Below are positions 46,311-63,420 of a stretch of DNA of 64,000 nucleotides, one piece after another (positions within the stretch are counted from its first letter, which is position 1; the number at the start of each line of letters is the position of its first letter). The position numbers were made by a program, and so were the translations under genes. The stretch comes from [Clostridium] celerecrescens 18A (GTDB lineage: Bacteria; Bacillota; Clostridia; Lachnospirales; Lachnospiraceae): positions 2,852,001-2,916,000 of the forward strand of contig NZ_PGET01000001.1 in the NCBI RefSeq assembly GCF_002797975.1, in the 5' to 3' direction. The notes beneath the pieces are model-generated. The model worked only from the letters and a program-made list of their open reading frames with translations. It was not told the origin of the DNA and searched no databases.

Positions 46311-46361
46311 GCTTTTTTTTAATTTATATATTATTTTTAATCGATTTTGATCATTTTAATT

Positions 46362-46425
46362 TTATAAACGTTTTCATTTTTAGCCATTTTCCTGCCTTGA
46401 AAGTGATTTTCAGATATGATATAAT
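46362..46425 (+). promoter_or_regulatory. Promoter and operator of the divergent lacI gene
   Basis: Plus strand TTGAAA (46397-46402), 17-bp spacer, TATAAT (46420-46425). Upstream, TATAAACGTTTTCA (46364-46377) shares AACGTTTTCATTTT with the site at 46251-46270. The two copies, about 110 bp apart, could be bridged by a tetrameric or looping regulator. Confidence 0.8.
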
Positions 46426-46463
46426 GAAAAAAGTACAAATATTTTCATAAGAAGGGATTAAAA

Positions 46464-47483: not shown

Positions 47484-47504
47484 TGATATTATTCAGCCAA
47501 CACC

Positions 47505-47570
47505 AGGGCATGCATTTTCATCTAGTTTCTGAATTATTGGATTCAAACTCCAGTGTTTTCAACATGCCCT
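47505..47570 (+). terminator. Inverted repeat after lacI
   Basis: AGGGCATG (47505-47512) pairs with CATGCCCT (47563-47570) across a 50-nt loop. Weak terminator candidate, no U-run. The rest of the 200-bp gap to 47687 shows nothing else. Confidence 0.35.
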
Positions 47571-47686
47571 TGGGTTGCCAGAAATTTATTGCTTATTAAT
47601 CCAACTATATTTTGGTATCAATACCATTTTCAATTGCTAATTTACATTGGCAGTATCTTATATTTCGATCCTACTGGCTGGATTGC

Positions 47687-48229
47687 TTAATCTACAAGTA
47701 TCCTGCGTTTTTCCTTCCTGATGCTTATGCCCTTTTCCTCACCCTTCTGTATGTCATCAATTAAGGAACACATGGATTGGTAAACAGACAGGTTATCCAT
47801 TGCTTTATCCCATCCGCCTCCACTCCGGTGTCTGGCATAGGCAGTTAAGGCTTGGGCCGGTACTGCTCCTGGCTGGCTTAAGCACAGATACGCAAATGAC
47901 CGGTCCTCAGGTTGACTGTTCCCACTTTCCAGAACAGTTCTGGCAAAATATCTGGTAACTGCAAGAGCCATACTTCCTCCTCCCAGACCTCCCCAGCTCC
48001 CATAAATCAGATTGATGGTATCATACTCGGTTATCATGTCTGAAAAGCCTTTGTACTGACTCCTTAACTGCGCCCCTTTCCTTAAATGAAAACGGCAGAG
48101 TTCAAATTCATCTTCGTCTTTTGCTTCATTTTGATCCAGTAAAAGCATTGTACGGTACGCGATATAATCAGGAGAAGACCGGTCAATCTCTGCTTTTATT
48201 TTCAAAATACTCTCAGGAGCAATTGGCAC
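47687..48229 (-). pseudogene. Unknown protein, probably 5'-truncated
   Basis: An open frame of about 180 codons. Its inside is protein-like (LCRFHLRKGAQLRSQYKGF, NLIYGSWGGLGGGSMALAVTR, AYLCLSQPGAVPAQALTAYA) but belongs to no family recognised here. The only start is a GTG (48229) with no ribosome site, and its first eight or so codons are the antisense of a conserved part of the XRE gene (YSQEQLA). The true 5' end has therefore probably been lost at the junction near 48210. Confidence 0.5.
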
Positions 48230-48525
48230 AAAAGATCAATAAAAGTAAATCGCTGATAAGCAAATACGAAAACAATCAAAAATTGCCTACCTTAGAGACA
48301 TTAATTGATTTATCTATTTTTGATGTAAGCCTGGATTTTCTGGCAGGAAAAGAAAAAGGGAAAACAATTATGGTCAATAACTTAACTGCCAGTCAGATCG
48401 ATATCATAAATGCATTAATGAAGGAGTTTCATAGCAGTAAACCCAAATATGTAACCAGAGGACTGACTACAAGGCAGCTTGATATTTTCAACGGACTTAT
48501 CATCGAATTTACAAAAATTGAATGA
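48206..48525 (+). pseudogene. XRE-family HTH regulator lacking its N-terminus
   Basis: The frame reads YSQEQLAQKINKSKSLISKY then ENNQKLPTLETLIDLSIFDVSLDFLAG, a clear XRE helix-turn-helix, followed by a short tail with NNLTASQIDIINALMKEF and a diverged second copy, RGLTTRQLDIFNGLIIEF. The first helix (about 15 residues, with the start codon) is missing: upstream of YSQEQ the sequence changes to that of the antisense gene, and no ATG or ribosome site exists. IDLSIFDV also lacks a residue usual here. Inactive remnant, unless an unusual start is used. Confidence 0.6.
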
Positions 48526-48566
48526 CGCAGCGAAAAAGTCTCCCAACCCTTTCACTGCGTCATTCA
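48519..48566 (-). terminator. Terminator of the ydj/ynj-like operon
   Basis: TGAATGACGCAG (48519-48530) pairs perfectly over 12 bp with CTGCGTCATTCA (48555-48566), and GAAA/TTTC extends the stem. On the minus strand ATTTTTG follows. It overlaps the XRE stop codon on the plus strand. Confidence 0.85.
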
Positions 48567-48620
48567 TCGTCTTCACAAACCAATATTCCAAGAATACAAA
48601 GTATCATCTCAAACCCACTG

Positions 48621-49490
48621 CTATTCCATGGGAACCCGCATCCACGCATCATAAATATGATTTTTATACACCTTATCTTCACCAATCACCGGAAGATTGC
48701 ACACACAGTTGCCTTCTTTGGACTCCTGCAAATGCCCCCGTTTCAAATACTCCTCTGAAATCAGCAGCGTTTTTCTCTCATCCACAAACAACTCCGGATG
48801 CATCAGATATACTGCCGCTGTCACATCCCAGTTATAAAATCCACCGATTCCATAGTCCTCCTCATTATACCCAAACCAATAATCCGTCTTCTCCCGAATG
48901 TATGCAGCGGCCCTGTTGTCCAAGCTGAATAAACGTTCCTTATATTCCTCCCTTGTAAACAGCACCTTCAGGCAATGATTCCCTGTGATCACTGAGACAT
49001 TTCTACCTTTCGTAAGCACCGTCCACGTGGCAAATGGATCGCAGGAGAAATTCAGCTCATTCATCACCTTTTTCTCAAACACAAGCGGGCTTGTAATTCC
49101 TCCCATTACCACAATATCCTTTACTTTCTCAAAAAAATGATTGTCCCTTTCATAAGCCCCCCGGAGATTTGTAAGGGAACCGGTTGCAAGAATTGATAAA
49201 GATCCTGCATACTTATCCGCCATCTCTGCAAGGTAATCTGCCGCCTCACTTTTGTATGCTCCACATCTTTCCCCACCCATTTTCACCGGAATATCCTCAC
49301 GTCCCAGGTCCTTTAACATGGTTCGGCAGGTGTTGTATACAATATCCAGCCGGTTATTCCCATAAGTTGCAGTGATTCCATGTACCATCGCTTCCGGGCA
49401 GCCAAGAAGATACATGAGCGCAAGTCCGTCATCCACATCACAGTCCTTCACCCCAAACGTATTGTCACAGTCAAATACTACATGCTTCAT
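48621..49490 (-). CDS. Inosine-uridine preferring nucleoside hydrolase family protein
   Basis: 289 residues. The calcium-binding N-terminal region reads VVFDCDNTFG and then DCDVDDGLALMYLL, a variant of the family D-x-D-x-G-x-D-D-x-x-A; later motifs are ILATGSLTNL, VVMGG and NFSCDPFATWTVL (family N-x-x-x-D-P-x-A), and YNWDVTAAVYL (family H/W-D-x-x-A). Family members hydrolyse the N-glycosidic bond of ribonucleosides. Last gene of the operon, next to the ABC ATPase gene. Its presence suggests a nucleoside-like or ribosylated substrate for the transporter, or a repair role. Confidence 0.88.
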   Translation of the reverse strand: MKHVVFDCDNTFGVKDCDVDDGLALMYLLGCPEAMVHGITATYGNNRLDIVYNTCRTMLKDLGREDIPVKMGGERCGAYKSEAADYLAEMADKYAGSLSILATGSLTNLRGAYERDNHFFEKVKDIVVMGGITSPLVFEKKVMNELNFSCDPFATWTVLTKGRNVSVITGNHCLKVLFTREEYKERLFSLDNRAAAYIREKTDYWFGYNEEDYGIGGFYNWDVTAAVYLMHPELFVDERKTLLISEEYLKRGHLQESKEGNCVCNLPVIGEDKVYKNHIYDAWMRVPME

Positions 49491-49496
49491 CTGATT

Positions 49497-50519
49497 TTAC
49501 GCTCCCTTCCGAAACCAAGTCACTCCGTTTTCCTCGATATAAATACCGGCCCGGTCTCCTTCTACCAGTCCCAGCTTCTCCAGCTCCTGACTAATGACCT
49601 GACTTAATATGATACCTTCCGGAACTTCTATCTTCACTTCCGCCATCTCTCCCATAAATGAGATTCCGGTAATTGTATAGGCTCCTTCTCTTACAAGCTT
49701 TACGGAAAATGGCCGGATCATCGCCTCATAATTCCCGTCTTCCAGCTCTGCACTCATCTCAAACAGTCTGCTGCTGAACCTGTGGTTTTCCATTCTTCCC
49801 TTCACATAGTTCACCCTGCCGAAATATTCCGCCACTGCCTTTGAAACCGGATGACGGAACATATTCCTTGGCGTGTCGTACTGTAAAATCCGTCCCTCAC
49901 TCATGAGCGCAATCCTGTCAGACATCTGCATCGCTTCTCTTTTCTCATGGGTCACAAGAATCGTGGTAATCTTCCGCTCACGGTGAAGCTTCTTCACAAG
50001 ATTTCCCATCTCCAGCCTTAAGCACTCATCCAGTCCTGAAAACGGTTCATCCAAAAGCAGCACTCTTGGATTTGCAGCAAGGGCTCTTGCCAGCGCAACT
50101 CTCTGCATCTGTCCCCCGGACATTTCTTTTATTTTCCGTTTCTCAAATCCCGTAAGCTGTACTTCCTCCAGCAGCTTTTTCACCGTTTTCTTCCGAACAT
50201 CTTTCGGCACTTTTTGAAGCTCCATGGGAAATGCAATGTTTTGTTCCACAGTCAAGTGGGGAAATAGTCTTAAATCCTGAAATACGATGACCGTCCCTCT
50301 TTTCTCAGGCGGAATCCCAACAACCGATGCATTCTGGATCCGTATATCACCCTGTTGGATTTCCAGAAGTCCCGCTATGCATTTCAAAAGTGTTGTCTTC
50401 CCACACCCGGATGCACCAAGAAGCGAGAGGAATTCCCCTTCCCGTATATTAAGGCTGATCCCATGAAGAATCTCTTTTTTCTGCAGTACTACTTTTAAAT
50501 TTTCAACCATAAGGCTCAT
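49497..50519 (-). CDS. ABC transporter ATP-binding protein (PotA/FbpC-like, YnjD-like)
   Basis: 340 residues. Walker A GASGCGKTTLL (about 34-44), Q-loop VFQDLRLFPH, signature MSGGQMQRVALARAL, Walker B VLLLDEPFSGLD, switch His in LVTHEKREA; C-terminal beta domain (about 235-340) of the TOBE type. It powers the importer made of the two permeases and YnjB-like binding protein upstream. E. coli YnjD, as recalled, is shorter and lacks the long C-terminal domain. Confidence 0.9.
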   Translation of the reverse strand: MSLMVENLKVVLQKKEILHGISLNIREGEFLSLLGASGCGKTTLLKCIAGLLEIQQGDIRIQNASVVGIPPEKRGTVIVFQDLRLFPHLTVEQNIAFPMELQKVPKDVRKKTVKKLLEEVQLTGFEKRKIKEMSGGQMQRVALARALAANPRVLLLDEPFSGLDECLRLEMGNLVKKLHRERKITTILVTHEKREAMQMSDRIALMSEGRILQYDTPRNMFRHPVSKAVAEYFGRVNYVKGRMENHRFSSRLFEMSAELEDGNYEAMIRPFSVKLVREGAYTITGISFMGEMAEVKIEVPEGIILSQVISQELEKLGLVEGDRAGIYIEENGVTWFRKGA

Positions 50520-50548
50520 TGTTTATCTCACCCTTTTCTCTAGTCATC

Positions 50549-51370
50549 TTATTCCGATGTATAAAATTCTCCGCCTCCATGTTTCATAAAACGGCATGCC
50601 GCCCATTCAAACACTCCAAACACGAGCAATGTCACGCCTAGAAACAGGGTACTGTAAATACAGGCAATGTTTCTATTTCCGCTTTGCAGATAAGGAACCA
50701 TAAGGATCGTAAAGGTTTTTACATTTCCCCCTCCTATCATCAGCGTGAGAAAATACTGACTGAAGGAAACGATATAGGACATGCTCACCGCCGAAAGAAT
50801 CACAGGCATTAACATCGGCAGAGACGTTTTGTAAAAGGCTTGAAAAGGAGAGGCTCCCAGGACTCTGGCCTGTTCTTCCAGCCTGCTGCCAACAGCCGCC
50901 GTCCCATCCATGATGAGGCGCACCGCATAAGGGAGTGAACAGATCAGATGAGCAATGATGACTCCTGTAATCCTGTTGTTTAAGCCCATTTTAATAAACG
51001 TAATCTGTATCCCCATTGCAAATACGGTGGCAGGAACCATAAATGGAAGGATCGTAAAAAAATACACCATCTGTTTTCCAGGGAATCGGTAAAACAGTAT
51101 AGCTCTCGCCGTCATAATGCCGATCACCGCAGATAAGGCTGCTACAACCGAGGAAATAAAAATGCTTGACCAGAGGATTTTTAAAAGCTCCTTTTTTCTT
51201 CCTGCTATCTCTAAAACCGCTCTCCCTGAAAACACCTGAGGCACCAGATCCGGCCATGTCCACCGCTCCGTGAAAATCCATAGAAACAGAGTGGCAGCCG
51301 GAATAAGAATGGCAGCCAGCATAATGAACCGTGTCATACTTATAAATATTGACTTTCTTTTTTTCTTCAT
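50549..51370 (-). CDS. ABC transporter permease (second half of a YnjC-like channel)
   Basis: 273 residues, six helices, with the inner-membrane component motif EEQARVLGASPFQAFYKTSLPMLMP. It lies 3 bp after the other permease. E. coli YnjC is one protein of about 511 residues with two such halves; here each half is a separate gene. Confidence 0.88.
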   Translation of the reverse strand: MKKKRKSIFISMTRFIMLAAILIPAATLFLWIFTERWTWPDLVPQVFSGRAVLEIAGRKKELLKILWSSIFISSVVAALSAVIGIMTARAILFYRFPGKQMVYFFTILPFMVPATVFAMGIQITFIKMGLNNRITGVIIAHLICSLPYAVRLIMDGTAAVGSRLEEQARVLGASPFQAFYKTSLPMLMPVILSAVSMSYIVSFSQYFLTLMIGGGNVKTFTILMVPYLQSGNRNIACIYSTLFLGVTLLVFGVFEWAACRFMKHGGGEFYTSE

Positions 51371-51373
51371 GGT

Positions 51374-52243
51374 CTATTGTTCTTCCGTTAAACATTTCAC
51401 ATTTTTCCGAATCATCAAAAAATATAACAGAGCACTGATAAGGGAGATTATAATAATAATTCCATTTAAAGCCATGGCATAAGGCCGGTGTCTTAAATCC
51501 GGATGAATATACTCATGATACGCAAGAACCGGCAATGCTTTGGGAACCGTGGCCCCAAGCAAAAGGGGAAGCTCATATGCACCCAGGGAGAATACAAAAA
51601 TAATCAAAAATCCGCTTATAATTGTATTTCTGCACAAGGGCAGCGTCACCCTCCAGAACACCGTCCACGTTTTCGCTCCAAGGTTCGTCGCCGCTTCTCC
51701 AAGACTTCCGTTTATATTAGCCATCAGTGCGATGATGAAATAAATAATAAAGGGAATTTCCTTCCACAGATATGCCATGATGATTCCTAACCCGTGAGAA
51801 TCATAGATAAGCATTGGAAACTGTTGCTGTTCCTGTATCATGCCAAGCGCATAGGCAGCCCTGGCCAGGATTCCATTCCTGGAAAAAATATTGATAATAA
51901 AAAGCGCCGCAACCACATGAGGCACGATGATCGGAAGCTGGATGATACGCATAACTGCTCCCTGAGTTTTCTTTCCCATGATGCATACGCCGCAAAAAAA
52001 TACTCCGCCTGCCGTTGCAAGAGCCGATGAAAGCAGTGCAATCCTAAGGCTGTACAGCACCGATCTCATCATATCCGGCCGTGACAGAACCTCCTTATAA
52101 TAAAAAAGCGTTGGCTTCTTTAACCCAAAAGCTGGAATTACCCCTAAGCTTTGGGTAATTCCAGTTACTAATCCAATCATAAACAAAATGGTAAGCAATA
52201 TTTGGGGAGCCAAAAGCAAGTATGGCATCAGCTTATCTTTCAT
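51374..52243 (-). CDS. ABC transporter permease (first half of a YnjC-like channel)
   Basis: 289 residues from the ATG at 52243, which overlaps the stop of the binding-protein gene (TAATG). Six helices; EAA-type loop LGEAATNLGAKTWTVFWRVTLPLCRN. AGGA lies 5 nt upstream. Works with 50549-51370 as a heterodimeric channel. Confidence 0.88.
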   Translation of the reverse strand: MKDKLMPYLLLAPQILLTILFMIGLVTGITQSLGVIPAFGLKKPTLFYYKEVLSRPDMMRSVLYSLRIALLSSALATAGGVFFCGVCIMGKKTQGAVMRIIQLPIIVPHVVAALFIINIFSRNGILARAAYALGMIQEQQQFPMLIYDSHGLGIIMAYLWKEIPFIIYFIIALMANINGSLGEAATNLGAKTWTVFWRVTLPLCRNTIISGFLIIFVFSLGAYELPLLLGATVPKALPVLAYHEYIHPDLRHRPYAMALNGIIIIISLISALLYFLMIRKNVKCLTEEQ

Positions 52244-53487
52244 TATTTTCCTGCCACTTCTTCTGTCCATATTTCTTCAATAATGGGAACCAGCTCAGCC
52301 GGCATTTCCGGAAGACGTTTTGATAACAGCTCATCCTGGGGAATCGTTCCCTTTCCAAGCTCCACCTCATCAAATGATGCTTTCTGTTCCTTTGAAAGCT
52401 TTGAATTGTCAAGAACCGGGATGACCTTCAATGTATCATAACGGTCTGCCTGGATTTCCGGAGACAGCATTTCATTGATTGCCACCATTGCTCCTGTCTT
52501 ATTCCCGGAATTTGCTGCAATGGCCATAAAGTTGGTATTTCCGATGGTCCCTTTCTCAAACTGGAACGACTGTGTTGTCTGTGTAAATGCTCCGTCCGCG
52601 ATCTTGACAGCAGTTCCGTAGGCATCATATGTCATGCTCAGCACAACCTCTCCGTCTGAAAACATATTGTCCAGGGTCGTTGAGGAATCCGGGAAAGTTT
52701 TTCCTTCATTCCATAAGTACGGATTCAGCTCCCTTAAGTATGTCATTGCAGGTTCCACAGCAGTTTTTACCGTTTCCTTATCCCCTTTCATATCCAGAAA
52801 CTGTTCGTATCCGCAGATCTCATAGATCATATTTCTGACAAACGCACTTCCTGTAAAATCCGGAAGCGCCGGATAAGTCACCTTTCCAGGATACTTCCGG
52901 ACAAACTCCTTAAAGTCTTCAGCGCTTTTGGGCATGTCCGGAGTTACAGCCGTATCCGCAATCATAACGATCTGCGCTTTTCCATAAGGAGCTTCAAATC
53001 CCTCAATGGGGTACGCAAAATCAAGCGTTACATCTTCGGACGTTGCATCTACATAATCCTGAAAATTGGGAAGTTTATCCACGAAAGGCCCATAGAGCAT
53101 ATTGTTTTCTTTTGCAGAACGGAAATTTTCTCCATTGATCCAGATCATGTCAATGCTTCCGTCCTTTTCGCCTGCCTGGATTTCTCCTGACAATTGGCTT
53201 AACACCTGATCAATATCCATTGGAACACGTTCCATGGTAATGTCATACTTTTCCTTCATTACCGGTGCGAAGGTATTGTCCAGCCATTCATTCAGCTTCT
53301 CATCTCCGCCCCATCCATAAAATGTAACGGTAGTGCCCTTTGCTTCCTCCTTCATTCTGACGAAGGACAGCTCCTCTGTTTCTATAGCCGTTTTTTTCTC
53401 TACTTTTTGTCCTTCATTGTTCCCGCAGGCTGTCATGGAAAAAGCTATAACAACCGTCAGAAGCGCTGCCGTAATTCTTTTTTTCAT
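52243..53487 (-). CDS. YnjB-like ABC transporter substrate-binding lipoprotein
   Basis: 414 residues with lipobox FSMTAC (Cys 21). The mature protein begins VTFYGWGGDEKLNEWLDNTF and has MIWINGENFRSAKENNMLYGP, GFEAPYGKAQIVMIAD and NPYLWNEGKTFPDSS, a pattern of the YnjB family (extracellular binding protein type with the W-I-N-G-x-N-F motif). The ligand of YnjB proteins is not established. It follows the double-rhodanese lipoprotein gene by 38 bp. Confidence 0.85.
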   Translation of the reverse strand: MKKRITAALLTVVIAFSMTACGNNEGQKVEKKTAIETEELSFVRMKEEAKGTTVTFYGWGGDEKLNEWLDNTFAPVMKEKYDITMERVPMDIDQVLSQLSGEIQAGEKDGSIDMIWINGENFRSAKENNMLYGPFVDKLPNFQDYVDATSEDVTLDFAYPIEGFEAPYGKAQIVMIADTAVTPDMPKSAEDFKEFVRKYPGKVTYPALPDFTGSAFVRNMIYEICGYEQFLDMKGDKETVKTAVEPAMTYLRELNPYLWNEGKTFPDSSTTLDNMFSDGEVVLSMTYDAYGTAVKIADGAFTQTTQSFQFEKGTIGNTNFMAIAANSGNKTGAMVAINEMLSPEIQADRYDTLKVIPVLDNSKLSKEQKASFDEVELGKGTIPQDELLSKRLPEMPAELVPIIEEIWTEEVAGK

Positions 53488-53525
53488 ATCTTTTCTCCGT
53501 CTTTCACTGCTTTACTGCAGGCTTT

Positions 53526-54428
53526 TTATTTTACAAATGCCGCCTGAACGTCACCGTCTTTTGCCCCGTTTTCAATGATAAACAGATTCTTTTCATCAAA
53601 GCCGGCATCCTTTAACACGGAAATCGCTGTCTTTGCGCATTTATTTCCGCTATAGCATAAGAAATATACCGGTTCTTCCTTATCAAGCTTTTCTGCTGCC
53701 AGTTCATACATTGCCGTCTGTGCATCGGCACTTTCAAAATCTTTTAAATTAACCTGAAGAGAATTTTCCAAATGGCCTCCTGCATATGTATCATTATCAC
53801 GAACATCAACGATCTGGGCATCTTTCTTTGCAATCACATCTGCTGCTTTTGCATACTGCCAGTCTATACTTTCTTCCGCACGGTTTGATGTCAGCGCACC
53901 TTTTTCTTTTGCCAGGGCTTTTGCTCCCCCTTCAACTGTATAGATAAGACCTGCATCGATTCCGGCTTCTTCTAACACCTGCGTAGACTTCTGGGCTCCT
54001 CTTTGCCCGCTGTTGCAGATAATATAGATTTTCTCTCCATCCTTTAAATTTTCTTCCGCATATGCTTTCATCTGATCAGCCAGGGATTCGTCTTCCAGCG
54101 GGAAAATGGGACACCATTCTGAATTGGCAACTCTTCCCGCCCCGTAATTTGACCACTCTCTTACATCAAGGACATGTGTTTTTCCATCAGCCGCTGCTTT
54201 TACTGCATCCCCGGCAGATACAAACTGGTATTCTTCTTTCCCTGTTTTTTCCGCTACTGATGTACTTTCTGCTGCCGCTGTACTCTCTGCTCCCAAAGTG
54301 CTTTCTGCTGCTGTACTTTCCACTGCTGTTGTTTCTTTCTTCTCTGCTCCATTACCAGAGCTGCATCCCGCAATCATGGATACCGTCATTGCTGACACTA
54401 AAACAGCTGATAAAAACTTCTTTTTCAT
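53526..54428 (-). CDS. Two-domain rhodanese (sulfurtransferase) lipoprotein
   Basis: 300 residues, exported and lipid-anchored: lipobox MIAGC (Cys 22), then a low-complexity linker rich in A-E-S-T (residues 30-60, several AEST repeats). Rhodanese domain 1 (about 65-175) has Cys 138 in IICNSGQRG, domain 2 (about 190-295) Cys 258 in FLCYSGNKC. Both domains keep the catalytic cysteine at the head of the six-residue loop, unlike classic rhodaneses where one domain is inactive. AGGAGG precedes the ATG. It probably carries sulfur (or selenium) as persulfide on the outer face of the membrane, beside the importer. Confidence 0.9.
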   Translation of the reverse strand: MKKKFLSAVLVSAMTVSMIAGCSSGNGAEKKETTAVESTAAESTLGAESTAAAESTSVAEKTGKEEYQFVSAGDAVKAAADGKTHVLDVREWSNYGAGRVANSEWCPIFPLEDESLADQMKAYAEENLKDGEKIYIICNSGQRGAQKSTQVLEEAGIDAGLIYTVEGGAKALAKEKGALTSNRAEESIDWQYAKAADVIAKKDAQIVDVRDNDTYAGGHLENSLQVNLKDFESADAQTAMYELAAEKLDKEEPVYFLCYSGNKCAKTAISVLKDAGFDEKNLFIIENGAKDGDVQAAFVK

Positions 54429-54449
54429 TGTATTTCCTCCTTGGTTTTC

Positions 54450-54492
54450 CGGTGCTAGTATATTTTTTCAGCACCGTGATATGGTGATTATA
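54450..54492 (-). promoter_or_regulatory. Internal promoter and hairpin before the rhodanese-ABC half of the operon
   Basis: The 138-bp gap before the rhodanese gene holds a TATAAT (54492-54487) on the minus strand, with a weak TTAAAT -35 at 16 bp, then a 7-bp hairpin CGGTGCT/AGCACCG (54450-54476). It could restart transcription for the ABC half of the operon, or mark a leader structure. Confidence 0.45.
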
Positions 54493-54566
54493 AAGGCTTT
54501 TCCACTTCATTTAAGCAGAATCGCCATAGTTACCGATTATTTCATTTCATATATTATAGGTGTTTT

Positions 54567-55574
54567 CTAACAGCCAACAAATCCTGCTATTTTATCCAGG
54601 AATCCATGGCTTAAATACGCCTCCAGTTTACGGGCTGTTGACTCATTGATTATTTCTTTGTCCGGCTGATTATATTCCACCCAGGCCATTGCACACCAGG
54701 TGATCCCCCTCAGGCATGTAATGGGAATATACGCCCAGGTCCGTTCTTTCAGACCGTCAATATTAAATCTCCCTGCTGCCTTTTTAATATACGAATCTGC
54801 AAACTTCTCCATCTGTTCACTTTCCAGAATCACATCTGTCTTCCAGAAGGTTGTGGTTGGTGCAAGAAAGTGCCCAAGGTCCTGTGCCGGATCACCGTAA
54901 ATCGGCTTTTCCCAGTCAATCAGGTAATTCCCTTTTCCTTCTCCGTTAATAAGAAAATTTGTAGAATTCAGCTCCGTGTTAATGCAGCACCGGTACGCTG
55001 GTCTTGGAAGGCTGTCTGCCCTTCCCCAGCCACGGTCCAGCATCCTGCGTATTTTTCTTTTCTTTCCTTCGTCTCCAAGAGCAGACTCTTCATACGTCCG
55101 GAACATCTCCTCGCATTCTTCCAGAATTGCTTTTAAAGGATTATCCGGTGCCACCAGCGGCGTCTCCCTTCCAACAGAAATGCTGTGTATATCAGCCAGA
55201 CAATCTGCCGCATAAAGCAGTTCTTTTTCATAATCCAAGGCATGTCCGGGAAGATACTCCATTACCATTACTCCAAAGGGAAGCTTCTCCTTCGTTCCAT
55301 CCACATATAAGGGGCTTGGTGTGCGTCCCGAATCCTTTAACAGCTCCAATGCATGAAATTCATACCCAATCTGATCTTCAAGATGCATCTGGCTTCCAAT
55401 GTTTACCCTCAGAATTAGCTTCTTCCCAGTCACCGGGTGAAGAAACAGGTAGTTTCTGTTATACTCACCCTGAGCCAGCATCCGGTATTCTTCTGTAACC
55501 TCCTCCAAAAGCCCCAGCGATTCCCGGTATCCCTTCCATTTAATGTATTCACCTAATCCCTGTACCTGATCCAT
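54567..55574 (-). CDS. Aminoglycoside phosphotransferase (APH)-family kinase-like protein
   Basis: About 335 residues from the ATG at 55574 (GGTGGAG upstream). APH/choline-kinase fold: nucleotide-binding N-lobe with NRNYLFLHPVTGKKLILRVN, hinge GVMVMEYLPGHALD, then CCINTELNSTNFLI where the catalytic loop H-x-D-x-x-x-x-N is expected, and LIDWEKPIYGDPAQDLGHFL supplying the metal-binding Asp. The usual His and catalytic Asp appear as Asn and Glu, so activity may be altered. Similar to thiamine-, choline- or homoserine-kinase-like members; small-molecule substrate unknown. Lies between the fused transferase and rhodanese genes. Confidence 0.82.
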   Translation of the reverse strand: MDQVQGLGEYIKWKGYRESLGLLEEVTEEYRMLAQGEYNRNYLFLHPVTGKKLILRVNIGSQMHLEDQIGYEFHALELLKDSGRTPSPLYVDGTKEKLPFGVMVMEYLPGHALDYEKELLYAADCLADIHSISVGRETPLVAPDNPLKAILEECEEMFRTYEESALGDEGKKRKIRRMLDRGWGRADSLPRPAYRCCINTELNSTNFLINGEGKGNYLIDWEKPIYGDPAQDLGHFLAPTTTFWKTDVILESEQMEKFADSYIKKAAGRFNIDGLKERTWAYIPITCLRGITWCAMAWVEYNQPDKEIINESTARKLEAYLSHGFLDKIAGFVGC

Positions 55575-55585
55575 ATCTCCACCCC

Positions 55586-56923
55586 CTATCTGATATCCCG
55601 GTACATATCCGAGATTCTTTCTATGGAAACTCCGTCCCGGTACATCTTTCGAAGCCGGTTCATTTTCCACATGAGCTTCAGCTTAGGTACAGTCCCTTTT
55701 GGAAAGCGCCTGTCTGATGTATAAATTCTTCTCCCTGTCATCCCAAGCTTCACCCGTTTTTCTTTTAATGTAAGTGAGAACTGGTAGTCTTCCATGATAG
55801 GAATCTGAGGAAACATTCCGACTTCAAAAAATAACTCCCGGTCCACAAAAATCCCCTGATCTCCAAACATGATCTTCCGGTCCTTAACTCTGTGGTTGGA
55901 AATCACTCTGCATGTGAACATGAAAAAATTGTGGGAGTGAAATGCTATCCCAAAACAGCCTGCCTGATGATCCCTCATCACCCGCCTGATTTCCGCCAGT
56001 GGCTTTGGCGGAAGCTCACTGTCACAATGGAGGAAAAACAGGATGTCTCCGCAGCTTGCCTTCGCTCCTGCGTTCATCTGCCTTCCCCTGCCTTTTTCAC
56101 TGTGCAGCACGGTATATCCGGGATCTATTAATTCCAATGTACGGTCTGAGCTTCCCCCATCCACGAACAATATTTCACATGTTCCCTGCAGTTCCCTTAA
56201 CTGCTCCTGAAACATTACAACTCTTTTTTCTTCATTATATATAGGGATAATGATAGAGATCGGAGCGATTCCAGCCGCATACCGCCCAGTTTCCGTCTGC
56301 TTCAGCTCTTTCCTTACGCGCATCCGTTTCCGATACTCTTTTAAATCCGATGGAGTGTCCATATCCCAAAGCTTTTTCGAATAGCCTACCGTAATTCCGG
56401 CCTGGGAAAGAGCCTTTATGGTTTCCTCTAAGACAGCTCCATGTCCATACCGGTCAAGACCAAAGGCTTCCCTCCGGGCTTTCTTCATACCCACGAGATA
56501 ATATCCTCCGTCATGGGTCTTCCCGAACACCACCTCCTGGGTTTTAAGCACTTCAAATGCCTGCATTAGATCACCGGACCGCAGCTCCGGCACATCGGTT
56601 CCAATCAGAATGCATTCTTCATACCCCATAGCAAATACTTCTTCAAATGCCCGGAACATCCGTTCCCCCAGATGATCCCCCCGCTGTGGTAAGTAACCAT
56701 ACTGAATTCCCAATACTTCTTTTAGATACCTTTTTTGTTTATCTTCATCCGGAGTGTAACAGACAAAAATATTTGCCTTACACTTTTCGCATTCTTTTAT
56801 AATGTCTTTTAAAAAACAAATATGAAGTTTTGCACATTGCTGCGGACTTAGCAGGGGCATCATCCTGGTCTTCGTCCTTCCCGGTATTGGTGCTCTTGTA
56901 AATATGATAATTGCCTGTTTCAT
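55586..56923 (-). CDS. Fused selenodomain-associated transferases 1 and 2 (TIGR04282-TIGR04283)
   Basis: 445 residues, two domains usually found as separate proteins. Residues 1-200 (FTRAPIPGRTKTRMMPLLS, ECILIGTDVPEL, KTHDGGYYLVGM) match the nucleotidyltransferase-like transferase 1, GT-A fold, related to MobA/LpxK-independent sugar-nucleotide enzymes. Residues 215-445 (ISIIIPIYNEE, ILFVDGGSSDRT, HCDSELPP, FGDQGIFVDRELF) match transferase 2, a GT2 glycosyltransferase with a D-x-D-like HCDSE. Both families were named for co-occurrence with radical-SAM/selenodomain genes; reactions unknown. It could make an activated sugar and attach it to the operon's substrate. Confidence 0.85.
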   Translation of the reverse strand: MKQAIIIFTRAPIPGRTKTRMMPLLSPQQCAKLHICFLKDIIKECEKCKANIFVCYTPDEDKQKRYLKEVLGIQYGYLPQRGDHLGERMFRAFEEVFAMGYEECILIGTDVPELRSGDLMQAFEVLKTQEVVFGKTHDGGYYLVGMKKARREAFGLDRYGHGAVLEETIKALSQAGITVGYSKKLWDMDTPSDLKEYRKRMRVRKELKQTETGRYAAGIAPISIIIPIYNEEKRVVMFQEQLRELQGTCEILFVDGGSSDRTLELIDPGYTVLHSEKGRGRQMNAGAKASCGDILFFLHCDSELPPKPLAEIRRVMRDHQAGCFGIAFHSHNFFMFTCRVISNHRVKDRKIMFGDQGIFVDRELFFEVGMFPQIPIMEDYQFSLTLKEKRVKLGMTGRRIYTSDRRFPKGTVPKLKLMWKMNRLRKMYRDGVSIERISDMYRDIR

Positions 56924-57376
56924 TTATAAAATCTTTCCTAAAATTTCTATTGTATCTTCCACTACCTTGGGGCAGAACTGAAGAAGCAGCCCCTTCTCCA
57001 TCACCTCTGTCAGTTCTTCCTTCCTGGAAATATCATGCCCCAGTAAATCACGGCAGATACAGGAAGGATATCGCTCCCCAAACAGTCTCTTAAATTCCCC
57101 GGTTTTCTGCATCATTACCTGCTTCTGCCCGGGATCTCCCTCTTCACTGTGTCCGTATTTCATTCCAAGCACCATCAGAGCCCCCGTAACAGCGCCGCAT
57201 GTTTCCCCGCACTGCATACCTCCCCCAAAGCAGGCGGAAACCTTCCTAAGCAGTACCTTATCTGTTTCTAATTCTCCCGCAAACGCCCCTGCAACTACCT
57301 GAGAACAGTCAATTCCCTGGAGGAATAGTTCCTGGATTTCTTTAAAGGTAATATTCTGTCTTTCATAAATGCCCAT
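56924..57376 (-). CDS. C_GCAxxG_C_C family putative redox protein
   Basis: 150 residues with the cysteine pattern that names the family: DCSQVVAGAF, VSACFGGGMQCGETCGAVTGA and later SCICRDLLG and FCPKVV. Such proteins probably bind an Fe-S cluster or metal, and occur with redox and metal systems; no activity is established. It overlaps neither neighbour (3 bp and 1 bp gaps), so it is tightly co-translated with the VTT and transferase genes. Confidence 0.85.
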   Translation of the reverse strand: MGIYERQNITFKEIQELFLQGIDCSQVVAGAFAGELETDKVLLRKVSACFGGGMQCGETCGAVTGALMVLGMKYGHSEEGDPGQKQVMMQKTGEFKRLFGERYPSCICRDLLGHDISRKEELTEVMEKGLLLQFCPKVVEDTIEILGKIL

Positions 57377-57378
57377 TC

Positions 57379-58083
57379 TTACTTCTCCCCTTTTTGCTTT
57401 TGTTTTTCCACGTATATTCTTCTTCCCATCACAATTAAAGCTGACAATGCAAACAAGATCATAAGCCCTGTTACAAATAATTTTGCGCCACCTGTCAGCA
57501 TTCCTCCCACATAGGAATACACAATGGTCGCCGGAAGCTGACCAATTCCAGTTGCAAGAAAGAAGGAACCAAAGGGCATGGAAGTAAGTCCCGCCCCATA
57601 ACTTATAAGGTCAAAGGATACAAAGGGCAAGAGACGGCAGACCAGAACCGTACTTTTTCCATACTTTTCAAAGAACGCATCCACCTGTTTTAATCCCGCC
57701 TTGCTTGTAAACTTTTCTGCCGCATCTCTACCCAGAACTCTTGCAATATAAAAGCACAGCGCAGCTCCCGCCATGGCACTTGTCCATGAAAGGATCGCTC
57801 CCTGCCACCAACCGAACAGATTGGCATTTGCAAAGGTAATGAGAAAGGCTGGCAGAGGAGCCGCTATTGACTGAAATATCATAAGCCCAAAGGATATTAC
57901 GGCCGCATACGCCCCCCAGGACTCTATAAAATCTTTCATCACACCAAAATCGCCGCTAGCAAACATTTTAAATACCTGATTTATGGTTTCTTTTACTGAT
58001 GGTATCCCATAATAACTAGCTATCGCGACCCCAATTCCTGATATCAACACGAATTTCTTAATCCATTTACTATTTTTAACCAT
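57379..58083 (-). CDS. VTT-domain (TVP38/TMEM64, DedA-like) membrane protein, YdjX/YdjZ-like
   Basis: 234 residues with five or six membrane segments. Signature of the VTT domain: FGWWQGAILSWTSAMAGAALCFYIARVLGRDAAEKF then VCRLLPFVSFDLISYGAGLTSMPFGSFFLATGIGQLPAT. A short basic N-terminus precedes the first helix. Start overlaps the stop of the Fe-S gene (TAATG). DedA-superfamily proteins move lipids or ions; for YdjX/YdjZ the substrate is unknown. Confidence 0.9.
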   Translation of the reverse strand: MVKNSKWIKKFVLISGIGVAIASYYGIPSVKETINQVFKMFASGDFGVMKDFIESWGAYAAVISFGLMIFQSIAAPLPAFLITFANANLFGWWQGAILSWTSAMAGAALCFYIARVLGRDAAEKFTSKAGLKQVDAFFEKYGKSTVLVCRLLPFVSFDLISYGAGLTSMPFGSFFLATGIGQLPATIVYSYVGGMLTGGAKLFVTGLMILFALSALIVMGRRIYVEKQKQKGEK

Positions 58084-59075
58084 TATTTTTCTCTCCGGTA
58101 TTTCGTTATGATTCGGTTTACCACAGACCTGCCTGTGTCCGGCCCCTCGTTTCTCTCTAATATTTCTAAAAGAATATGCTTTGTATCCCTGTATCCCTTT
58201 CTCACAAAATTCCCCGAACAGGAAGCGCAGTAAGTATAAATGGTCTTCTCATACTCCTGTCCGATGCTGCATACCATCTGTCTTGCCAGATCCTTTTCTT
58301 TGCTCCCGGCGCAGCCTCCAAGCCCGCAGCACTGCACATGAGAAATCAGATCCGGTTCTTCCTTTAAGAATGTACGAATGAAGCCCAACAACTCCTGATT
58401 TTCCCTGTCCGGGCATGGGGGAAATATAGTGAGCCTTCCCTCAATCATCTTCCCGATTCCAAACTCCCGAAGTTTTTCATATATACTCACTACGTTTACG
58501 TTCAGACGGGGTCTTAAATAAGCGTAACAGTTTGGACAAAGGGTAATTACTTCCTCTACACCGTTTTCTCTTAGCTTTCTCTCCACTCTTCCAATAATCT
58601 CTTTTTCCCGTTTCTCCATTCCCAGTTCTGCAATGGGCTTTCCGCAGCAGTCAAATACTGTCCCTGCATCCGCTATTTCCCGAAACAGTTCCATCAGGTA
58701 CCTGGTCGTCTTGGGATAATAGGCCGGGAAATTACAGCCCGGAAAAAGGACGCTCTTTTTCGCCCCAAGACCGTAGTTCTGAAATAAATAGTTCTGTTTT
58801 TCCCTTACAAGCATTCCGTAGCCTTTTTCACGAAGCTGCCCATCATTCCTGCGAACCTGCTTCTTTCGCATCCCTAAAACGACTTCTCTTCCGTCGATTC
58901 CCTTGGGACAGACTTCAGAACACCTGCCGCATAAAAAGCAGTGATAAGAAAGCTCCTCCAGCTTTTCTTTATCACCGATATCTATGTTATATTTCTCCAG
59001 AAAGAGACAGTGCTGCCGGCAGATATGGCAATGAACGCATGCATCCGGATCCATGATTCTCGGCTTATCTTCCAT
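58083..59075 (-). CDS. (Fe-S)-binding protein with two CCG domains (HdrB/GlpC-like)
   Basis: 330 residues. Two 4Fe-4S ferredoxin motifs (CVHCHICRQHC, about 13-23, and CFLCGRCSEVC, about 46-56) are followed by two cysteine-rich CCG-type domains: LFPGCNFPAYYP ... VFDCCGKP, then LCPNCYAY ... VQCCGLGGC and YCASC. This is the architecture of the electron-transfer subunits GlpC/HdrD/LutA. No membrane segment. Sandwiched between two VTT genes, overlapping each by a few bases, as is the ferredoxin-like ydjY between ydjX and ydjZ in E. coli. It probably passes electrons to or from a membrane or thiol partner. Confidence 0.88.
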   Translation of the reverse strand: MEDKPRIMDPDACVHCHICRQHCLFLEKYNIDIGDKEKLEELSYHCFLCGRCSEVCPKGIDGREVVLGMRKKQVRRNDGQLREKGYGMLVREKQNYLFQNYGLGAKKSVLFPGCNFPAYYPKTTRYLMELFREIADAGTVFDCCGKPIAELGMEKREKEIIGRVERKLRENGVEEVITLCPNCYAYLRPRLNVNVVSIYEKLREFGIGKMIEGRLTIFPPCPDRENQELLGFIRTFLKEEPDLISHVQCCGLGGCAGSKEKDLARQMVCSIGQEYEKTIYTYCASCSGNFVRKGYRDTKHILLEILERNEGPDTGRSVVNRIITKYRREK

Positions 59076-59745
59076 CTTGCTCCTCCTGTATGTATCTCCT
59101 CTTTAAGAATACCCCCATTCCCAGCACCCCAATTGCCAATACCGCCGCGATCCCCATATACAGCAGCCGGTTTTCTTTGTCCGCAAGCCCGGCCGTTCCA
59201 ACTGTGTACATTGCGGTACCCGGAAGCATGAAAACCAGAGAACCGATCATATATGTGCTGAATTTAATATCTGTAATACCGTAGGCAAAGTTTTGAAGGT
59301 TATAAGGAAATACTGGCACAAGCCTTGTAATGATGAGGACAAACAACTGGTTTTTTCCCGAATTGTCAAACAACCATTTATTCAGATATTTGTTCTTTAC
59401 AACCATAGGTCTGACAGTGTCTTTCAAAAAGAACCTGCCTGCCGAAAATGCAAGAACCGCCCCGATTGTGGTAGCCGCGGAACAACATACCGTACCCAGA
59501 ACGGGGCCAAATAACAGACCGGCAAATATTGCAAATGTGACACCTGGAAGTGCCAGAAAGGCACAGCCTGCAATGGTGAGCAGCATATAGATTGCAATGG
59601 CATAGGGGAGATTAACCTCTACCGCCTGTTTTAGAAAACCCAGATTATCCATATTACTGATATAGGAAGACCACCCAAATACATGATTAAAGCTAAGAAT
59701 CATAACGATGATTCCTGCAAATACCCACACTTTTTTATTATTCAT
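59065..59745 (-). CDS. VTT-domain (TVP38/TMEM64) membrane protein, YdjX/YdjZ-like
   Basis: 226 residues, about five membrane segments. VTT motif: LLFGPVLGTVCCSAATTIGAVLAFSAGRFFLKDTV then IITRLVPVFPYNLQNFAYGITDIKFSTYMIGSLVFMLPGT, with the F/P-Y-N-L-x-N-Y/F-x-x-G-x-T signature strong. Second VTT paralogue of this operon, overlapping the Fe-S gene by 11 bp. The pair may form one membrane complex. Confidence 0.9.
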   Translation of the reverse strand: MNNKKVWVFAGIIVMILSFNHVFGWSSYISNMDNLGFLKQAVEVNLPYAIAIYMLLTIAGCAFLALPGVTFAIFAGLLFGPVLGTVCCSAATTIGAVLAFSAGRFFLKDTVRPMVVKNKYLNKWLFDNSGKNQLFVLIITRLVPVFPYNLQNFAYGITDIKFSTYMIGSLVFMLPGTAMYTVGTAGLADKENRLLYMGIAAVLAIGVLGMGVFLKRRYIQEEQDGR

Positions 59746-60169
59746 CCTTTTTCTTTCTCCGCATCACATGTACCGCTCCTGTTTTTATGATTTGCAACAG
59801 CGCCGCTGCTCCAAGCATCAGGCTGATAAAATAGTACGCTCTCATCGTCTTTGTGGAGCCGATATAAGTAAAAATTCCATACACCGCTGTGAGCATAACC
59901 ATGGCAACATGCATTGCAGTCTCCAGTCTTCCCTTTTGTCCGCGCCGGATAACCAAAGCTGCCAAAAGCAGAAGTGTCAATGCTGTTAAAGCTGAAATAG
60001 CAGTGTATTTCAATGTCTCTATCGGAAACGAGCTCTCCCAGCCTTGACTTTTATAAATCACATATCTTGCCATCCCCATTTTTTTACGGGTAAAATATTG
60101 GATGATGTATGCACCCGCTAAAAATAGAATTTCTGCAAAGGTCATAATAAAATATCCAAACTTTTTCAT
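59738..60169 (-). CDS. Four-helix membrane protein, unknown
   Basis: About 143 residues from the ATG at 60169 (weak GGGAAG upstream); another ATG at 60223 would add 18 unlikely residues. Four hydrophobic segments (FGYFIMTFAEILFLAGAYII; ISALTALTLLLLAALVI; HVAMVMLTAVYGIFTYI; AYYFISLMLGAAALLQII) separated by short charged loops, and a basic C-terminal tail. No family recognised. Overlaps the VTT gene by 8 bp and follows the YnjE-like gene, so it belongs to the system. Confidence 0.7.
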   Translation of the reverse strand: MKKFGYFIMTFAEILFLAGAYIIQYFTRKKMGMARYVIYKSQGWESSFPIETLKYTAISALTALTLLLLAALVIRRGQKGRLETAMHVAMVMLTAVYGIFTYIGSTKTMRAYYFISLMLGAAALLQIIKTGAVHVMRRKKKDE

Positions 60170-60233
60170 TTTGCATCTTCCCATGTTAAAATAAGCGCTG
60201 CCGCTTCCGCGTCCAGCGCTCATATACTTATTG

Positions 60234-61313
60234 TTATTTTGCTGCTTTGTCCTTGGAAAGATTTCCTACCGTGGTATATTCACATTTACCGCTTCCAGGA
60301 TCTCCCACCTGAACTGGCAGGCTGTCATCCATCTGCCACTGATACCAGCCTCCGTCATAAAGCTTTGCGTTGGTATAGCCGTTTTCGTAGCAGATCAAAA
60401 ATGGGATTGTGGCTCTCCAGCCCGTTCCACAGTAAAATGCCAGTTCATTGTCAAGAGAGGCTCCTGTTTCTTTTAAATATCCTTCCAGCACATCTATACC
60501 GACGGTCGTACCATCTGCCTTATTATAAGAACCATCGTCCGTATCATGTCCCCAAATCGCGCCTTTGGGTTCTCCTGCCTTATCGATATATCCATATCCA
60601 CTGGTTTCCCCAGAGAATTCTGCCTTGCTCCTGATACTCACTAATTTGAAATTGTTGTCACTTTCAAGTTTTTCTTTAACATTATCAATGGAAATAACAT
60701 ATTCCGGATGGGCAGGTACTGTTGTTCCAAATCCCTGGTCTGTTGCTTTCGGCTTATTGCTGCCTTTTTCCGTGCTATATCCGGCTTTTGTCCAGGCCTC
60801 GAACCCGCCATCTAAGCATTTTACATTTTCTACTCCTGCCCAGAGCAGAGTAAATGCGACTCTGTCATCTGCAGAATTTATTCCATCAGCTCCATAGCAG
60901 ATGACTGTTGTATCTTTTGTAATACCGTAATCAGCCATCAGCTTTTCAATTTCCTCCGGTGTGCGGATGTTCCAATATTCTTCTGATTCTATATAATCCG
61001 TATTCATATGATAAGCGCCCTTGATATGTCCTTCTGTGTATGCAGGATTATCTGCTTCCTCACCCCACGCACATTCCAGAATCACATAATCCGATGACTC
61101 TTCCTGATTCCCGTCAATTACGCTCTGCACCCAGTCCGGTGATACGTACACCTTTTTTTTATCCACCGGATTAGCGTTTACATCAATTTTTTCTTCCTTC
61201 TCTGCCTTCTTTTCGCCGTCAGCAGGTTTACTTTCAGACTTTGCTGCACATCCTGCTGTCAGTGATACTGCCATGGAAAGACACAGCAATGCACCCAGTA
61301 CCCTTTTTTTCAT
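60234..61313 (-). CDS. YnjE-like sulfurtransferase (rhodanese) lipoprotein
   Basis: 359 residues, exported: lipobox SLTAGC (Cys 22), then a Lys/Glu-rich linker. Rhodanese domain 1 (about 55-180) has a Cys 139 in VICYGADG but a variant loop, domain 2 (about 200-335) has the active loop CGTGWRA with Cys 295; that loop is as recalled for E. coli YnjE. EGHIKGAYHMN and CLDGGFEAW are other rhodanese marks. First gene of the operon, with a good promoter upstream. Expected to transfer sulfane sulfur, or possibly selenium, outside the cytoplasm. Confidence 0.9.
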   Translation of the reverse strand: MKKRVLGALLCLSMAVSLTAGCAAKSESKPADGEKKAEKEEKIDVNANPVDKKKVYVSPDWVQSVIDGNQEESSDYVILECAWGEEADNPAYTEGHIKGAYHMNTDYIESEEYWNIRTPEEIEKLMADYGITKDTTVICYGADGINSADDRVAFTLLWAGVENVKCLDGGFEAWTKAGYSTEKGSNKPKATDQGFGTTVPAHPEYVISIDNVKEKLESDNNFKLVSIRSKAEFSGETSGYGYIDKAGEPKGAIWGHDTDDGSYNKADGTTVGIDVLEGYLKETGASLDNELAFYCGTGWRATIPFLICYENGYTNAKLYDGGWYQWQMDDSLPVQVGDPGSGKCEYTTVGNLSKDKAAK

Positions 61314-61354
61314 AATACTTCTTCTCCCAATATGTATAATTTTTTGCTATATTA

Positions 61355-61416
61355 ATTATAAGTAGGTACTGCTTTTGAGTCCAATTGATTTAATCGATAA
61401 GTAACCGGTTATTTAT
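61355..61416 (-). promoter_or_regulatory. Promoter and palindromic activator site of the ydj/ynj-like operon
   Basis: Minus strand TTGGAC (61384-61379), 18-bp spacer, TATAAT (61360-61355). Twelve bp upstream of the -35 lies ATAAGTAACCGGTTATTTAT (61397-61416), with a perfect 10-bp core TAACCGGTTA. The position suits an activator dimer. The remaining upstream sequence to 61568 is AT-rich, without a gene. Confidence 0.7.
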
Positions 61417-61568
61417 AGATTACATCTATATATCTTTTTTATCTGTATTACCACGAATCAGAATCTTTTCATAGAATAAACGTTCAAGCTGCTGTAATTA
61501 GAAGTCCATCATAAATATATTATAAGAGTTAATTTTTATCTATGGAGCATCGATCATATTTACTGCCC

Positions 61569-61606
61569 AAAAAAAAGACCATTGCAAATCACTTTGCAAC
61601 AGCCCT
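61569..61606 (-). terminator. Terminator after the BFD gene
   Basis: TTGCAAA (61582-61588) and TTTGCAA (61593-61599) form a stem extended by G-U pairs; on the minus strand eight U residues follow (61576-61569). Typical intrinsic terminator, about 20-50 nt after the BFD stop at 61627. Confidence 0.9.
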
Positions 61607-61626
61607 TTATTCGTTGGGTCATAAAA

Positions 61627-61842
61627 TCAATGCGGATTTTCATCTTCCCAATTATCCAGAATCTGCCGGATTTTTTCTCCGCATCGTTTTCCTTTACAGC
61701 TGCCATTGCCAGTATTCGTCATACTCCATACCTTTTCAACGGTGTCTGCACCTTCTGAAATTGCCTTTTTTATTGTTTGCTTAGAAACTCCCTTGCAGAT
61801 ACATACCTTTGTTAATTTGTCAATTATTTCCTGATTGTCCAT
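61627..61842 (-). CDS. BFD-type [2Fe-2S] binding domain protein
   Basis: 71-residue protein with the four cysteines of the bacterioferritin-associated-ferredoxin fold: VCICKGV (Cys 14 and 16) and GSCKGKRCGEKI (Cys 49 and 54), with the intervening helix KQTIKKAISEGADTVEKVW. Such domains carry one [2Fe-2S] cluster for electron or iron transfer. Here it stands alone, 18 bp after the LysM-GH18 gene and probably on its transcript. Confidence 0.88.
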   Translation of the reverse strand: MDNQEIIDKLTKVCICKGVSKQTIKKAISEGADTVEKVWSMTNTGNGSCKGKRCGEKIRQILDNWEDENPH

Positions 61843-61859
61843 TGTTTGCTTTTTCCTTC

Positions 61860-63155: not shown

Positions 63156-63167
63156 AGCTATCCTCAA

Positions 63168-63420
63168 ATGATCTTATTAATTCTATTATATGCCAACCCT
63201 ACCTGTTCATAACAATATGTTACAAACAATTACATGATTTTTTGATAATCAAAATCAATACCGGTTCTGAACAGTCCTGCTTCTGTTCCGGCAACCTTCT
63301 GGATTCCGAAACCACATAGTGTGGATCTGTCCGTCTATCCATACGCCGGCATAGATCCTCGCTGTGATTGCCAGCATGACATTTTCCGTTGCACTTTCGT
63401 GGTCCTCGAAAATTGAATGG
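63168..63420. other. Intergenic stretch with a coding-like remnant
   Basis: On the minus strand 63420-63255 is open and reads HSIFEDHESATENVMLAITA then RIYAGVWIDGQIHTMWFRNP and a stop; composition is protein-like, but there is no start codon or ribosome site and no family was recognised. It may be the C-terminus of a decayed gene. The rest is AT-rich. Confidence 0.3.

Follow-up and report, generated by a model that had tools for sequence, protein, structure and literature searches.

We analysed a stretch of 64,000 nucleotides from [Clostridium] celerecrescens 18A (contig NZ_PGET01000001.1, positions 2,852,001 to 2,916,000; hereafter the window), which carries a tightly packed operon of 14 open reading frames (ORFs), all on the minus strand (48621-61313). 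The operon is a new variant of the Escherichia coli ydj/ynj system. Our tentative reading, to which we give a probability of roughly 0.44, is that it belongs to a widespread envelope uptake-and-processing system serving the supply of selenium, perhaps of sulfur. The genes of this system form a conserved set, one of its modules is exchanged for another in the loci seen, genomes that carry it tend to encode SelD, and in single loci selenium genes lie beside it.

The window operon and E. coli ydjXYZ-ynjABCD/ynjE have in common a pair of VTT membrane proteins, the binding protein YnjB (37% identity between the two), permease and ATPase, and a double rhodanese. The window has two separate permeases, whereas E. 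coli has YnjC of 511 amino acids (aa), and a CCG Fe-S protein takes the place of E. coli YdjY. The window also adds a nucleoside-hydrolase-family protein (NH), an APH-fold kinase (APH), a fused transferase of the families TIGR04282 and TIGR04283 (GT82-GT83), a C_GCAxxG_C_C protein, a four-helix protein and a second rhodanese. Since profiles of YdjY, AhpD (YnjA-like) and YnjF had no match in 46000-64000 at E 1e-6, the operon is a variant that differs from the E. coli operon. A preliminary description of this DNA had proposed a possibly undescribed system, which is not wholly so, because the related E. coli genes are already in the literature.

A conserved gene set with exchangeable modules

We compared 87 YnjB loci, which comprised the window, its relatives, E. 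coli and 80 loci from named genomes (the best 80 of at least 558; 3.7-21 kb in size). Profiles were built from the first loci, and L055 was left out of the counts as a duplicate from the same genome as L090. One control set consisted of 77 hand-set 20-kb segments placed at even steps in 9 genomes; it skipped known YnjB or selD places in G208, G215, G217, G247, and G248, which favoured the selenium reading. The other consisted of 20 random segments with positions drawn by a seeded script. VTT was found in 37 of the 87 loci, Fe-S/CCG in 29, rhodanese in 24, NH in 33, APH in 37, GT82 in 25, GT83 in 26, and YnjF in 15. The corresponding numbers in the hand-set segments were 1, 1, 2, 2, 0, 0, 2, and 0, and the random segments contained one rhodanese and one GT83 but none of the other six. 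These counts support that the operon genes are one conserved unit related to ydjXYZ-ynjABCDE. The earlier suggestion that the shared core marks one conserved machine thus holds, as VTT, rhodanese, transferase and ABC genes co-occur beyond the controls.

The same association was seen in 200 genomes of the host's family, one per genus. YnjB was over cut-off in 7 of them and TIGR04283 in 10, with 6 having both (p 2e-8); weaker family-2 transferase matches occur in all 200. The kinase profile matched 8 family genomes at E 1e-20, all of them TIGR04283-positive. In the ArsS-positive genome G005, the kinase gene (G005:C37:69998-71010) is broken by stops, lies far from the transferase (93012-93683) and seems to be decaying. 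In the loci of the family relatives, NH adjoins YnjBCD where it is present, VTT and Fe-S are mostly near the transferase, and the order is variable.

YnjF never shared a locus with any of NH, APH, GT82, and GT83 (0/87). Only the NH/APH/GT type was present in 47 loci, only YnjF in 15, and neither in 25 (p 1.5e-6 for the exclusion, uncorrected for shared descent). YnjF was accompanied by VTT in 14 of its 15 loci. From this swap we infer that either module handles the carrier portion of what is imported. Desulfobacterota loci (e.g. L116, L119, L122, L129) have the kinase followed by ATPase-YnjB-permeases without the other enzymes, while kinase, GT82 and GT83 are all present in L131.

Several loci contain unusual proteins. 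VTT is fused to a MerA/lipoamide-dehydrogenase-like reductase in L130 (3819-5960, plus strand) and to two SDR-type domains in L118 (14357-16651, plus strand), in both cases near YnjBCD. A 351-aa protein stands immediately before YnjB in L095, L097, and L098 (about 8906-9971, plus strand), where the other modules are missing; its L098 copy has weak radical SAM (PylB/BioB) matches, and the genomes of L095 and L097 gave no SelD match.

Co-occurrence with SelD and single selenium neighbours

Among the 200 family genomes, SelD was over cut-off in 67, and in all 10 of the TIGR04283 genomes (p 1e-5). A selD gene with an in-frame TGA was counted by eye in 28 of the 200 and was again found in 10/10 TIGR04283 genomes (p 6e-10). 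Six of the seven YnjB genomes of the family have SelD (p 0.006). SelD and ArsS were also searched for in the genomes of 50 of the 80 named loci, and SelD was present in 43. Of the 34 among these genomes that we assigned by hand to the host's class, 29 had SelD, vs 89 of 391 class draws (p 4e-13), where the draws are not independent of descent. The host genome itself has two selD genes, one of them with an in-frame TGA. These results support a co-occurrence of the system with SelD far above background, and the preliminary description, which had named co-occurrence with selD as a check, was borne out here.

Nine selenium-gene seed sets matched 6 of the 80 named YnjB loci; L096, which has the double-cubane protein only, was not counted. 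In L124, selD (348 bits, cut-off 125) lies ahead of kinase-ATPase-YnjB, and in L074 a desulfurase (423 bits, cut-off 377) and yedF (221 bits, cut-off 110) are ahead of VTT-VTT. L103 has yedF (211 bits) shortly after the ATPase. L077 contains yedF (202 bits), the PF11823 Se/S carrier (85 bits, cut-off 25), and the double-cubane protein (458 bits, cut-off 350). In L085 and L087, a selenium LysR regulator (306 and 302 bits, cut-off 250) and a desulfurase adjoin rhodanese-YnjBCD.

Facklamia lactis has an island that runs, with a few other genes interspersed, from selA, selB, a yedF-like gene, selD, two short genes, rhodanese, YdjY, a small membrane protein and NH through VTT, VTT, one unassigned gene, a DsbD-like gene, ArsS, a PrdB-like selenoprotein, GT83 and kinase-GT82 to rhodanese, YnjBCD, rhodanese, desulfurase and LysR_Sec. 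The PrdB-like selenoprotein (L152, 17649-18368, minus strand) has 239 aa and one in-frame TGA. F. hominis has selA-selB-selD, YdjY and NH within 20 kb, and in E. coli K-12 (NC_000913) ynjE ends at 1840774 and selD occupies 1846965-1848008, about 6 kb apart. Across several groups, selD, selA, selB, yedF, PF11823 (DUF3343), and LysR_Sec adjoin the system in individual loci. E. coli YnjA (L063, 6016-6564, plus strand) has as its best model a YciW-related (seleno)protein (101 bits, cut-off 310), a faint tie to selenium.

When TGA was read through, the matches in the loci were ArsS (L057/L066, L074) and the ATPase of L142, the latter taken as a frame overrun. The ArsS genes of L057 (10399-11397, minus strand) and L074 (8172-9221, plus strand) carry, close to the C-terminus, a residue encoded by TGA within SSUGG, and ArsS of G208 also contains a TGA.

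Two reviews note that prokaryotes have no identified transport system that is specific for selenium and of high affinity (PMC9312934, PMC13188914). The selenium trait is present in one third of bacteria, and the genes found close to orphan selD include an ABC ATPase family (PMC5029168). YedE, YedF, LysR_Se, and DUF3343 are candidate selenium genes (PMC5322559). In E. coli, the ydj/ynj genes belong to one expression module with yedEF and yjiLM (PMC7888660), and a single expression table holds ydjY, ynjE and yjiL (PMC9068703). With regard to anaerobic regulation, ydjXYZ-ynjABCD are in an FNR table and ynjE is reported as directly activated (PMC3688515). PMC5322559 contains neither 'ynjB' nor 'DedA', PMC13188914 neither 'ynj' nor 'DedA', and PMC9312934 no 'DedA'. 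Our literature search found no further paper that ties the ydj/ynj genes to selenium.

Layout and proteins of the operon

The host genome is a single contig of 5.27 Mb. All 14 ORFs of the preliminary description are present, in its order, and Pfam and NCBIfam agree with the families that it had named (Table 1). Intergenic distances range from -85 to +138 bases and are at most 38 in 12 of the 13 junctions. In the structure model of the long kinase form, residues 1-31 mostly have pLDDT <50, so a start at Met33 (55574) is likely, and the -85 overlap then vanishes. The operon had been described as running from one promoter to one terminator. Both sites were located by scan, but promoter-like sites (40 vs 32 in shuffled sequence, standard deviation 5.1) and terminator-like sites (11 vs 12.7) show no clear excess; because they are hardly commoner than in the shuffles, we consider it likely, and not more, that the 14 genes are on one transcript. 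Control by a vitamin riboswitch was rejected, as Rfam gave nothing near gathering score in 46000-64000.

Table 1. Genes and candidate signals of the operon, in order of position
Feature	Position (strand)	Evidence
Terminator-like hairpin, operon end	48519..48566 (-)	20 pairs, loop 8; from scan
Nucleoside-hydrolase-family protein (NH)	48621..49490 (-)	PF01156, 127.5 bits (vs 34.2)
ABC ATPase (YnjD role)	49497..50519 (-)	PF00005, 131.6 bits
Permease B	50549..51370 (-)	PF00528, 56.8 bits
Permease A	51374..52270 (-)	PF00528, 62.1 bits
YnjB-type substrate-binding lipoprotein	52243..53487 (-)	NF008633, 474 bits (cut-off 203); lipobox MTAC
Double-rhodanese lipoprotein Rho2	53526..54428 (-)	PF00581 in two stretches
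APH-fold kinase	54567..55670 (-), likely start 55574	PF01636, 63 bits; model pLDDT 88.9
Fused TIGR04282 (nucleotidyltransferase-like, GT82)-TIGR04283 (family-2 glycosyltransferase, GT83)	55586..56923 (-)	201 + 235 bits (cut-offs 134 and 182, both exceeded)
C_GCAxxG_C_C redox protein	56924..57376 (-)	PF09719, 99.9 bits; TIGR01909, 60.8 bits (cut-off 47.4)
VTT/DedA-type membrane protein 2 (YdjX/YdjZ role)	57379..58083 (-)	PF09335, 97.6 bits
Fe-S protein, HdrBC/HdrD-like	58083..59075 (-)	PF02754 in two stretches
VTT/DedA-type membrane protein 1	59065..59745 (-)	PF09335, 78.6 bits
TM4 (four-helix protein), 161 aa	59738..60223 (-)	About four hydrophobic segments (hydropathy peaks)
Double-rhodanese lipoprotein Rho1 (YnjE role)	60234..61313 (-)	PF00581 in two stretches; NF008557, 71 bits (under its cut-off)
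Sigma-70-like promoter site upstream of Rho1	61355..61383 (-)	Consensus match alone, at 10/12 positions

The binding lipoprotein, the two permeases and the ATPase make up a complete binding-protein-dependent ABC importer set. The best NCBIfam model of the ATPase is PhnT2, at 288 bits and under its cut-off of 458. The only YnjB relative with a solved structure that was found by sequence is 4edp. One fold ranking likens the YnjB model to glycoside and glycerophosphodiester binders, and the glycoside, sulfoquinovosyl glycerol and glycerophosphocholine binding proteins have 8-16% identity to it. As the fold rankings are ambiguous, reading the ligand off solved relatives was abandoned. The suggestion in the preliminary description that the import is glycosyl-, phospho- or nucleoside-linked and bears sulfur or selenium is a conjecture, with glycoside binders on top in one ranking and different binders in another.

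NH keeps D9, D20, D21, N45, E145, N147, and D222 at >=85% in 34 rows, which we take to be Ca and ribose ligands. W221-D222 is conserved, so the position before the last Asp is Trp instead of the usual His, presumably the catalytic residue of inosine-uridine nucleoside hydrolases. In the kinase, NTE(L/V)N replaces the HxD loop, which we take to be the usual catalytic motif of APH-type kinases; of 43 aligned rows, 41 (including 3 query rows) show this, and the remaining two have NYDLN and STELN. An identity as methylthioribose kinase was not adopted, since HxD is absent and the fold matches are too generic to single out 5-methylthioribose kinase or choline kinase as the closest fold. The GT82 half matched PDB 3CGX at 7e-40.

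Both rhodaneses and YnjB have lipoprotein signals in their sequences. The VTT pair of the operon are the only VTT matches in the whole genome (E 0.001). The Fe-S protein keeps 18 Cys at >=85% in 29 aligned rows, eight of them ferredoxin-type (two 4Fe-4S-type motifs) and the others in two complete CCG motifs with five Cys each; this CCG layout is presumably the disulfide-handling pattern of HdrB/HdrD. TM4 had no match in Pfam or NCBIfam.

Past the promoter-like site, a short way upstream of the operon, lies a gene for a BFD-type [2Fe-2S] protein of 71 aa (61627-61842, minus strand; PF04324, 51.5 bits), which is possibly an electron-transfer partner. The next gene upstream (61860-63167, minus strand) encodes a LysM and GH18 protein and seems unrelated. 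A LacI-family regulator (46464-47483, plus strand), RbsR/CytR-like at scores below cut-offs, converges on the operon end.

A possible selenium route and its alternatives

In the selenium reading, what is transported, what each enzyme does, which way the flow runs and how it reaches SelD are all inferred, as follows. The YnjB-type lipoprotein would capture a small, glycoside-like and probably chalcogen-bearing compound, which the ABC transporter would import. The NH-family enzyme may then split the glycosidic bond, and the APH-fold kinase may phosphorylate the freed sugar. The sugar would be activated to a nucleotide sugar by the TIGR04282 half and passed on by the TIGR04283 half, with the carrier thereby recycled; in the E. 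coli-type relatives, the phosphatidyltransferase YnjF would take the place of this module. A redox/chalcogen relay that hands reduced selenium or sulfur to SelD-dependent pathways could consist of the two VTT proteins, the extracytoplasmic rhodaneses (both lipoproteins) and the HdrBC-like Fe-S protein.

A number of observations weigh against this reading. The frequency of selenium neighbours was 6/80 loci vs 0/77 hand-set segments (p 0.016), but the addition of the two avoided selD spots raised the controls to 2/79 (p 0.14), and yedF was found in 1 of the 20 random segments. The list of selenium genes had been drawn up after such genes were seen in L077, L085, and L087. With these fairer controls, the neighbour frequency does not clearly exceed chance, and the single cases are suggestive and no statistical proof. 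None of the nine seed sets matched in the 64-kb window or in L050-L063, no selenoprotein was found in the window operon with TGA read through (E 1e-8), and the host selD genes are ~160 kb and 1.5 Mb from YnjB. The Sec genes of F. lactis could be there simply for the PrdB-like selenoprotein that this island encodes. SelD is missing from 7 of the 50 YnjB genomes, and it is not over cut-off in G045, the family genome with YnjB only. Some of the compared genomes are closer kin than others, and many belong to anaerobes, which commonly use selenium. As to the enzymes, the kinase has generic fold matches and a Glu where the catalytic Asp normally stands, the GT83 profile also picks up ordinary family-2 transferases, and polyamine, iron, phosphonate, and sugar-phosphate binders rank first for YnjB in Foldseek.

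Rather unlikely, in our view, is that the system builds a lipid or glycolipid without a direct role in selenium metabolism. YnjBCD would import a head-group precursor, which YnjF, or kinase-GT82-GT83 in the form of a glycoside, would put on a lipid, and VTT would flip the product; the link to SelD would reflect shared bacterial traits or accompanying selenoprotein reductases. The exclusion of YnjF and NH/kinase/GT and the frequent pairing of YnjF with VTT fit such a scheme, as do the similarity of YnjF to archaetidylinositol-phosphate synthase (63 bits, cut-off 180) and the glycoside and glycerophosphodiester binders in the one fold ranking of YnjB. The glycine reductase gene GrdA adjoins the Sec-type selD of the host genome, and it also agrees with this explanation that selenium genes are not clearly closer than chance would have it. 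By itself, however, this explanation leaves the SelD association within one family (10/10 vs 67/200) unaccounted for, and likewise the grouping of the E. coli genes with yedEF and yjiLM in one expression module (PMC7888660), the rhodaneses and the HdrBC-like protein. A supply of sulfane sulfur for the molybdenum cofactor, in which the YnjE-like rhodaneses feed molybdopterin or Fe-S assembly via a sulfur relay, appears quite improbable. The authors of the E. coli iModulon study name molybdenum too (PMC7888660), and genetic data put ynjABCDEFI in a group with suf genes (PMC3930520). The annotation of E. coli YnjE is molybdopterin synthase sulfurtransferase. Cofactor synthesis is cytosolic, whereas the window rhodaneses should lie outside the cytosol because of their lipoprotein signals.

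The transferases raise a third explanation, organoarsenic metabolism, which we regard as unlikely. Here, NH, kinase, nucleotidyltransferase and glycosyltransferase would complete arsenosugar synthesis after ArsS, and genomes without ArsS, such as the host's, would import an arsenic nucleoside or glycoside. Each half of the fused transferase now bears the NCBIfam name 'arsenosugar biosynthesis glycosyltransferase', and of the families of ArsS/arsenosugar clusters (TIGR04167, TIGR04169, TIGR04282, TIGR04283), both transferase families are over cut-off in the window. The ArsS clusters of the relatives L052 and L057-L059 share VTT, Fe-S/CCG and partly C_GCAxxG_C_C with the window. Among the 200 family genomes, each of the 6 with ArsS also has a TIGR04283 protein above cut-off, and each of the four that have TIGR04283 but not ArsS has YnjB, a striking either/or pattern. 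In L074, ArsS, AhpD, YnjBCD, NH, GT and kinase stand in a row, and the enzyme steps would suit a 5'-substituted adenosine. In contrast to the ArsS clusters, the window operon has no AhpD, and neither ArsS (best 48 bits, cut-off 300) nor ArsM (NF008823, best 40 bits, cut-off 263; other ArsM models untried) is over cut-off in the host genome; on these grounds, we rejected arsenosugar synthesis there. ArsS was present in just 5 of the 50 YnjB genomes, compared with 43 for SelD, and of 11 genomes tested for ArsM, one scored over cut-off. Our literature search found no paper with TIGR04283.

The selenium reading can be extended further. YnjBCD with VTT, Fe-S protein and rhodanese would then be the dedicated selenium uptake machinery that has been missing for many bacteria, and what it imports would be an organic glycoside of selenium, either a selenosugar or a seleno-nucleoside; NH-kinase-GT82-GT83 or YnjF would handle the carrier, selenium would pass to SelD, and the ArsS clusters would have branched off from the same machine to handle arsenic or selenium. 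We consider this extension doubtful. Nevertheless, the system tracks SelD across the tested genomes and exists in E. coli, and is thus a testable candidate for the unknown bacterial selenium uptake route. If the reading is true, it would give ydjXYZ-ynjABCDE a function and tell whether the 'arsenosugar' label of the two transferase families holds.

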